Position numbers and translations under genes: made by a program
The notes under the pieces: model-generated
Databases searched by the model: none
Told to the model about the DNA's origin: nothing
The model's input: the letters and a program-made list of their open reading frames with translations, nothing else
Assembly (NCBI GenBank): GCA_027489955.1
Contig: JAIXYZ010000013.1
Location: forward strand, 806,001 to 870,000
Origin: Hyphomicrobiales bacterium
GTDB taxonomy: Bacteria; Pseudomonadota; Alphaproteobacteria; Rhizobiales; Beijerinckiaceae
Direction of reading: 5' to 3'
DNA: 64,000 nucleotides
In this document: positions 32,695-33,569 of the stretch, piece by piece
Layout of the letters: each line of letters begins with the position of its first letter
How positions within the stretch are numbered: position 1 is the stretch's first letter

Positions 32695-32864
32695 CGGCCG
32701 TTTAGGTAAAGATAATTCGAATTCGGTTTTGATTAACGCCAATCAGGAAACCTTTGATTCACATCGATATTTAAACTCGTTTTCATCGGTGGAACGCTAT
32801 CGTCCTCCTCACATTCAGACCGGACATGAATCCGGCGAGGCAAATAAAACAGGCGAGGCGTACG
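32695..32864 (+). promoter_or_regulatory. AT-rich upstream region of the ldtR-like gene
   Basis: This is the clearest drop in G+C within the window. It contains the palindrome AATTCGAATT (32714-32723) and the inverted repeat TGATT-N6-AATCA (32730-32745) inside TTGATTAACG. No single -35/-10 pair is convincing. It most likely holds the ldtR promoter and regulator-binding sites. Confidence 0.5.
32729..32738 (+). promoter_or_regulatory. TTGATTAACG element upstream of ldtR
   Basis: The 10-base sequence TTGATTAACG occurs here and again upstream of the L,D-transpeptidase gene at 33560-33569. Repetition before a regulator and its predicted target suggests a binding site, perhaps for LdtR itself (inference). 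Confidence 0.4.
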
Positions 32865-33374
32865 ATGAAGACTGCAGCGAAGACTGTCGATACTCAGGCT
32901 CCGGTCGTCGAAACCGAGATCAAGCCGCTCTATCTCGAGGCTCTGACGCTGGTCGAGCGGCTGCACCGCCGGCTTCTCGACGTGATCAAGGACGAGTTCG
33001 AGCGGCGCGGCCGGGACGACGTGAACAGCGTGCAGGCGCTGCTCCTGTACAATATCGGCGACAAGGAGCTCACCGCCAGCGAGCTGCGCACCCGCGGCTA
33101 CTATCTGGGCTCCAACGTCTCCTACAACGTCAAGAAGCTGGTCGAGATGGGCTATCTCCATCACGCCCGCTCGCGCATCGACCGCCGCTCGGTCCGCATC
33201 AGCCTGACCGACAAGGGCCGGCAGGTGCACGAGATCGTGAACCGGCTCTACGAGAAGCACATCCGCACCGTGGAGCCGATCGGCGGCATCTCCATGGACG
33301 ACTTCAAGCGCCTCAACCAGGCTCTCGTCCGCCTGGAGCGCTACTGGACCGACCAGATCCGCTACCGCCTCTGA
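32865..33374 (+). CDS. ldtR: MarR-family transcriptional regulator, LdtR-like
   Basis: A 169-residue winged-helix protein of the MarR superfamily: helices around IKPLYLEALTLVERLHRR, the recognition region ELRTRGYYLGSNVSYNVKKL, and the wing HARSRIDRRSVRISLTDKG. It closely resembles LdtR, described in Liberibacter and Sinorhizobium as a regulator of an L,D-transpeptidase gene (ldtP) and of osmotic tolerance. The next gene here is an L,D-transpeptidase, which supports the name. The ATG at 32865 is preferred over one 13 codons upstream because GGCGAGG precedes it. Confidence 0.85.
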   Translation: MKTAAKTVDTQAPVVETEIKPLYLEALTLVERLHRRLLDVIKDEFERRGRDDVNSVQALLLYNIGDKELTASELRTRGYYLGSNVSYNVKKLVEMGYLHHARSRIDRRSVRISLTDKGRQVHEIVNRLYEKHIRTVEPIGGISMDDFKRLNQALVRLERYWTDQIRYRL

Positions 33375-33410
33375 TCGTCCGGATCCATCAAGTCCGCTAC
33401 AGGCTTCACG

Positions 33411-33436
33411 CCCCGGATCGCCCCCGCGATCCGGGG
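33411..33436 (+). terminator. Hairpin after the ldtR-like gene
   Basis: An 11-base-pair perfect stem (CCCCGGATCGC / GCGATCCGGGG) with a CCCC loop, starting 37 bases after the stop codon. It lacks a T-run but would separate ldtR from ldtP transcription. Confidence 0.5.
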
Positions 33437-33559
33437 TGCCGCCGTCTGCAGGGGAGGGCAGTGCTGCATCCCGGCCACACAGGCCTGCCATGCGGCCTTC
33501 GCGCTTCGGTTCGGCGCTCCGCTGCCTTAAATCGGCCCGACTGTTGGCCTTCCTCACGG

Positions 33560-33569
33560 TTGATTAACG
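33560..33569 (+). promoter_or_regulatory. TTGATTAACG element upstream of the L,D-transpeptidase gene
   Basis: Second copy of the 10-base element seen before ldtR, here 90 bases before the chosen ATG of the L,D-transpeptidase gene. This is a plausible LdtR site (inference). Confidence 0.4.

Follow-up and report, generated by a model that had tools for sequence, protein, structure and literature searches.

A conserved candidate LdtR operator upstream of ldtR and a separate promoter module upstream of ldtP in Hyphomicrobiales

Introduction

The LdtR proteins of 'Candidatus Liberibacter asiaticus' and Sinorhizobium meliloti are described as activators of both ldtR and ldtP, and in gel shifts the Liberibacter and Sinorhizobium proteins bind their own ldtR promoters (PMC3999280). 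The site before ldtP in 'Ca. L. asiaticus', ATATTCCTTGTATTTTAA, was delimited there by DNase I footprinting; a second site has been proposed in Liberibacter and its ldtR promoter is bound as well, in which it is like the arrangement described below (PMC3999280). In S. meliloti, where the two genes are paired as in the DNA studied here, the ldtR and ldtP promoters are both bound by LdtRSmc in gel shifts (PMC3999280), and stronger LdtR binding has been reported before ldtP than before ldtR. Work on Liberibacter has also treated LdtR as a global regulator and as a target for chemicals; there, a search of the A/T-rich genome with a motif drawn from few A/T-rich sites returned 235 genes (PMC5481520). 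Among the matches listed for LdtR and SMc01768 in the literature, largely outside subscription journals, we found no paper defining the operator described below.

Here we analyse a window of 64,000 nucleotides from a Hyphomicrobiales bacterium of the family Beijerinckiaceae (assembly GCA_027489955.1, contig JAIXYZ010000013.1, positions 806,001 to 870,000), which contains an ldtR-ldtP pair. A first-pass annotation had noticed the ten-letter word TTGATTAACG before both genes and proposed it as the LdtR box. Comparison with related loci directs attention to another element, a 20-bp repeat before ldtR. Like the Liberibacter footprint site, it would belong with the same regulator family, that site being an A/T-rich repeat upstream of the -35 whose ends matter most for binding (PMC3999280). 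The two differ in sequence and in length (18 bp in Liberibacter, 20 bp here) and also in place, since the Liberibacter site was mapped before ldtP, whereas the conserved operator here lies before ldtR and is unrecognisable before ldtP in most loci.

Loci and matrices

The comparison covered 135 ldtR loci (52 to 100% LdtR identity, 131 distinct upstream sequences), 80 of which are the best 80 of 586 confirmed loci and therefore lean to the relatives of the window. Removal of near-duplicates and of loci with less than 50% identity or less than 150 bp upstream left 121 ldtR promoters, and 79 ldtP promoters were reduced to 70 by dropping near-duplicates and those below 54% identity or 250 bits. 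The gene order of the window was found at 78 of the 135 ldtR loci within the DNA examined, giving 78 ldtR-ldtP gaps with 75 distinct sequences; 66 gaps were scored with the ldtR-box matrix, those outside 100-900 bp being left out. One Rhizobiaceae-type sequence was counted twice (L159, L252). The ldtR-box matrix was trained on 120 promoters that it scores, without that of the window and with its sister genus member (L013) dropped as redundant, and the Rhizobiaceae-type matrix on the promoters that it finds (50 of 50), which makes the matrix counts dependent on their training sets. Independence does hold for the spacing tests on loci fetched later, though the two sets have genera in common. The four relatives taken to have ldtP but no LdtR gave no LdtR match better than 1e-6.

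Results

The gene pair

The two genes are as follows.

32865..33374, + strand: ldtR, MarR-family regulator of 169 aa, assigned by its domains and NCBIfam NF047395
33659..34927, + strand: ldtP, L,D-transpeptidase of 422 aa with YkuD and PG_binding_1 domains

Both had been recognised in the first-pass annotation, and both assignments hold: the LdtR-like regulator matches NCBIfam NF047395 over residues 13-169 at 283.9 bits, above the curated cut-off of 250, and the gene downstream has the YkuD and PG_binding_1 domains of an L,D-transpeptidase. In several relatives ldtP stands away from ldtR. The solved structures that were compared with LdtR were of distant MarR relatives only, and LdtR was not found in the 10 genomes of up to 2.0 Mb that were searched.

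A conserved operator before ldtR

Across the relatives, a 20-bp imperfect inverted repeat, ATTYAC-N8-KTAAAC, is conserved before ldtR at the predicted -35 position, often with a second box 25 bp upstream of the first. The spacing within the box is sharply defined: among the 121 nonredundant ldtR promoters, 55 have ATTYA-Nk-TAAA with k=10 and no more than 4 have it with any other k up to 20. With k=21 there were 11 of 121, and the reversed sequences used as a control showed a peak too, at k=17 (13 of 121). In 69 held-out promoters, fetched after the pattern had been defined, k=10 was found in 35 and other values from 4 to 16 in at most 2. The distance between boxes was equally constant: the 23 box pairs of the first set are spaced 25 bp, as in the window, and so were 16 of 16 pairs in the held-out promoters.

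The profile of 107 promoters reads gTaAAc-N4-gATTcAtccTGttgtTTAAaCtg.TtTTcAt..g...c..cTA..tT. The downstream box (box 2) is a general feature: by the matrix trained on them, 108 of 121 promoters lie above 9 bits and 13 at 9 or below, whereas shuffles pass 9 bits in 0.7% of cases and far-upstream segments in 1.7%. The upstream box (box 1) occurs in a minority of promoters: 38% of the 107 promoters reach a score of 1.9 at exactly -25, compared with 0.03% at other offsets. In 52 promoters with LdtR identity of at least 75%, complementary pairs out of 6 came to 3.62 for box 1 and 3.04 for box 2 against an offset mean of 1.54, and at least 5 pairs were complementary in 40% of box 1 positions versus 0.6% overall, making box 1 the more symmetric. 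Where it is present, the left half of the upstream box is mostly ATTCAC (17/52) or ATTTAC (8/52), not ATTAAC. Four ldtR promoters without a high-scoring box were noted (L022 in genome G004, L029 in G054, L129 and L131); the last two are Phreatobacter loci, in which a diverged element may replace the box.

Rhizobiaceae-type ldtR promoters contain GTTAA-N8-TTTAA, which occurred in 42 of 50 at one spacing and in none at others; among these 50, 30 loci had been fetched after the pattern had been seen, and the strict pair was present in 24 of them. The sequence at the place of the ldtR box is TGTTAAGcCTG..gTTTAAGTcGAATTTTA. This set includes Liberibacter crescens (L234, an exact match to four published primers). 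A published S. meliloti primer matches the ldtP starts of L225 and L232, and these two loci read GTTAAGGCTGCGGTTTAAG before ldtR; S. meliloti itself was not identified among the loci compared. Rhizobiaceae-type ldtR boxes from 11 loci aligned only modestly with a 45-nt probe that contains the Liberibacter footprint, with shuffle P between 0.0005 and 0.17.

The strict box pattern is near-unique in genomes with LdtR. Eighteen relatives with LdtR gave 24 exact matches versus 18 for the reversed control pattern, and 15 of the 24 lay in the ldtR promoters of 11 genomes, a strict match at ldtR being absent in the other 7 of the 18. In six genomes without a strong LdtR match the strict pattern occurred 7 times, with 5 of the occurrences in a single genome, versus 3 for the control. 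An LdtR paralogue with 55% identity (L052, G018) keeps box 2 in its own promoter at -101, with a score of 19.0. The near-uniqueness makes autoregulation by LdtR the likeliest function of the box, and together with the Rhizobiaceae reach and the box 2 of the paralogue it points to LdtR autoregulation.

The ldtR promoter of the window

In the window, the promoter is composed of these elements.

32732..32751, + strand: decayed upstream box (operator box 1), ATTAAC-N8-GGAAAC, at a distance of exactly 25 bp from box 2; matrix score 1.9
32757..32776, + strand: operator box 2, ATTCACATCGATATTTAAAC, intact; matrix score 25.1
32780..32786, + strand: TTTTCAT, conserved in the profile of 107 promoters and located between -35 and -10
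32797..32802, + strand: predicted -10 of ldtR, CTATCG, placed by a conserved TA that lies 40-41 bp downstream of where box 2 begins

Box 2 scores 20 bits higher than any other position of the window under a matrix from whose training the window's own promoter was excluded, and is the sole exact match to ATTYABN8KTAAAC in its own genome. Among far-upstream positions, 9 in 100,000 score at least as high as box 1 (1.9). The predicted -10 lies one base further than the conserved TA. TTTTCAT is strongly conserved across ldtR promoters, and its Rhizobiaceae-type counterpart is GAATTTTA, in 46 of 50.

The ten-letter word shared by the two upstream regions

The elements on which the first-pass annotation had built its proposal are placed as follows.

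32729..32738, + strand: copy 1 of TTGATTAACG, exact match, upstream of ldtR
33560..33569, + strand: copy 2 of TTGATTAACG, upstream of ldtP; its conserved part is TTAAC at 33564-33568
32730..32745, no strand assigned: TGATT-N6-AATCA repeat of the earlier annotation, broken in a sister genus member

Both copies stand where they had been placed and are the only ones in the 3.13 Mb genome (2 forward, 0 reverse); a scan of the window allowing up to one mismatch returned the same number of matches, both exact. Copy 1 does overlap the TGATT-N6-AATCA repeat, and it is the left arm of the decayed box 1, in register with box 2. The conserved dyad differs from this repeat and sits elsewhere, and the sister genus member L013 has TTGATTAACGCCAAACA in place of the repeat. 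The expectation of an LdtR box before ldtR was thus partly right, as a conserved box is there with copy 1 as the left arm of a decayed one, but the decamer is not that box.

The decamer had also been called rare by chance. A first-order Markov model from the window predicts about 0.4 copies per genome; in shuffled windows, matches with up to one mismatch averaged 0.54 and 11 of 100 shuffles reached 2. The word was picked post hoc: 9 of 77 loci have some 10-mer common to the ldtR and ldtP upstream regions, and 142 of 1521 mispaired control regions (9.3%) do as well, which makes the shared word a coincidence at chance level. The earlier annotation had itself named lack of conservation in relatives as grounds against its proposal, and the decamer is not conserved: it occurs before ldtR at 2 of 135 loci, those of the window genome and the sister genus member, and before ldtP in 1 of 78 gaps, that of the window genome. 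In the sister genus member, copy 1 is preserved in full and copy 2 differs at one base. On these counts the decamer was rejected as a conserved box common to ldtR and ldtP, and from the sequences compared the identity of the two words looks like a coincidence.

The ldtP promoter

Copy 2 lies downstream of a conserved block.

33524..33537, + strand: conserved ldtP upstream block GCCTTAAATCGGCC, GCC-N8-GCC-like, in 46 of 70 ldtP promoters

Of the 70 nonredundant ldtP promoters, 46 have the block, and it occurred in none of the 131 far segments or the 135 ldtR promoters; the pattern was composed after part of the promoters it counts had been viewed. In 11 genomes searched, the strict block gave 12 matches, 6 of them before ldtP, and 11 for the control. 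It is also seen before ldtP where this gene does not adjoin ldtR. TTAAC occurs in 40 of 70 ldtP promoters versus 3 of 131 far segments. Where the word follows the block by no more than 60 bp, as in 30 promoters, 26 have the two 30-32 bp apart and four, among them that of the window, 38-42 bp apart. The 11-bp direct repeat of the GCC-N8-GCC block might, we presume, suit a response regulator.

Four relatives of the same family have ldtP and no LdtR (L063, L065, L068 and L070, in genomes G030, G032, G024 and G006, 99-100% complete) and are natural controls for features that need LdtR. Three of these keep the GCC block without TTAAC and the fourth keeps TTAAC. Since the block is kept in genomes without LdtR, it is independent of LdtR. 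TTAAC precedes ldtP in 1 of these 4 genomes versus 39 of 66 others (Fisher P 0.31), and so the word may depend on LdtR.

The ldtR-box matrix raised 2 of 66 ldtR-ldtP gaps above 9 bits, a background level, against 108 of 121 ldtR promoters. In the window, copy 2 scores 3.7, the fourth best of all positions, which leaves room for a weak LdtR site there. For the Rhizobiaceae type, 4 of 49 ldtP gaps exceed 5 bits versus 1.5% of shuffles, a small excess, and the strict half-site pair at the ldtR spacing was found in 0 of 49; TGTTAA, the left arm of the Rhizobiaceae-type ldtR box, is in 33 of 49. The gaps with a site like the ldtR box are those of L257, L265, L266 and L276, lineages in which sequence similarity suggests that LdtR may control ldtP. 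TTAAC is common before ldtP in both families (40/70, and 31/49 for the Rhizobiaceae type), yet these do not share the left half of their ldtR box (TTCA versus TTAA), which argues against one binder for the two sites. A conserved LdtR box before ldtP was rejected on the 2 of 66 gaps, the 4 of 49 Rhizobiaceae-type gaps and the 1 of 78 gaps with the decamer.

Discussion

Sequence, conservation, spacing and near-uniqueness set the operator apart, and we infer LdtR to be its binder: the region before ldtR is probably an autoregulatory operator-promoter bound by LdtR, with copy 2 belonging to a separate ldtP module. A MarR-type LdtR dimer would bind the pseudo-palindromic box ATTYAC-N8-KTAAAC, the right arm of which would overlap the -35 position of a promoter that appears to lack a good -35 element. 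In many species the dimer could also occupy another box of this kind, at a distance of exactly 25 bp upstream. The bound protein would set the transcription of ldtR, more likely by activation, judging from the reports on Liberibacter and Sinorhizobium. Box 2 (32757-32776) would be the intact operator of the window genome and box 1 (32732-32751) a decayed one whose left arm is copy 1; copy 2 (33560-33569) would overlap the TTAAC of a different ldtP promoter module, downstream of the GCC-N8-GCC block. The published stronger binding before ldtP counts against the autoregulatory reading of the box, given that the box is missing before ldtP in most loci.

Very probably, then, TTGATTAACG is not itself the LdtR box of this lineage, a site that would let LdtR control ldtR and ldtP jointly by binding at each copy. 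That reading could draw on the position of the sole two genome copies before precisely these genes, their retention in the sister genus member (one exact, one with a single mismatch), the fourth-ranking score of 3.7 at ldtP and the lower frequency of TTAAC in the four LdtR-less genomes, which is not significant; but 2 of 135 and 1 of 78 loci have the decamer, shared 10-mers occur at the mispaired rate, and the copies make poor boxes (1.9 and 3.7) where box 2, which has no decamer, scores 25.1. It is also unlikely, if slightly less so, that another regulator binds the boxes and controls ldtR while LdtR does not bind. The core promoter around the boxes is conserved too, as such a reading would allow, yet more sites would be expected if the regulator served several genes, and in genomes with LdtR the strict box outside ldtR promoters does not exceed the reversed control. 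In addition, the ldtR paralogue keeps the box, and a 20-bp dyad would suit a MarR dimer. LdtR binding to its own promoter is reported from two species (PMC3999280).

A somewhat better chance, though still a low one, attaches to copy 2 being a CtrA-type half-site in the ldtP promoter, linking the transpeptidase to the cell cycle. This is conceivable because CtrA motifs including TTAACCAT are predicted before several Agrobacterium L,D-transpeptidase genes (PMC11527210), and the likeness consists in the TTAAC word before a transpeptidase gene, conserved here in 40 of 70 promoters. The Agrobacterium motif is itself a computed prediction as published (PMC11527210), and the window reads TTAACGGT instead; TTAACCAT is not in the ldtP promoter of the window and is in 6 of 70 ldtP promoters of relatives, and TTAA-N7-TTAA is likewise not in that of the window and is in 0 of 70. 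Hardly any weight can be given to the reading in which methylation-dependent control explains the conservation of the boxes, their GATTC serving as a CcrM methylation site (GANTC). Box 2 of the window does contain GATTC, but GANTC is in box 2 of 50 of 107 promoters and in box 1 of 18 of 107, counts on which CcrM sites were rejected as the cause of box conservation, and the spacing is kept where GANTC is lost, e.g., in several Methylobacterium loci.

Returning to the autoregulatory operator, a broader proposal is offered tentatively, as possible rather than probable: LdtR might be mainly a single-target autoregulator with an operator of its own across most Hyphomicrobiales, rather than a direct co-regulator of ldtP, with ldtP driven by a different factor reading GCC-N8-GCC at a near-fixed distance from TTAAC. 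The 20-bp operator, obtained from conservation in other Hyphomicrobiales, provides a sharper LdtR motif. It puts in question the direct control of ldtP through the same motif, and it predicts that autoregulation is an old role of LdtR.
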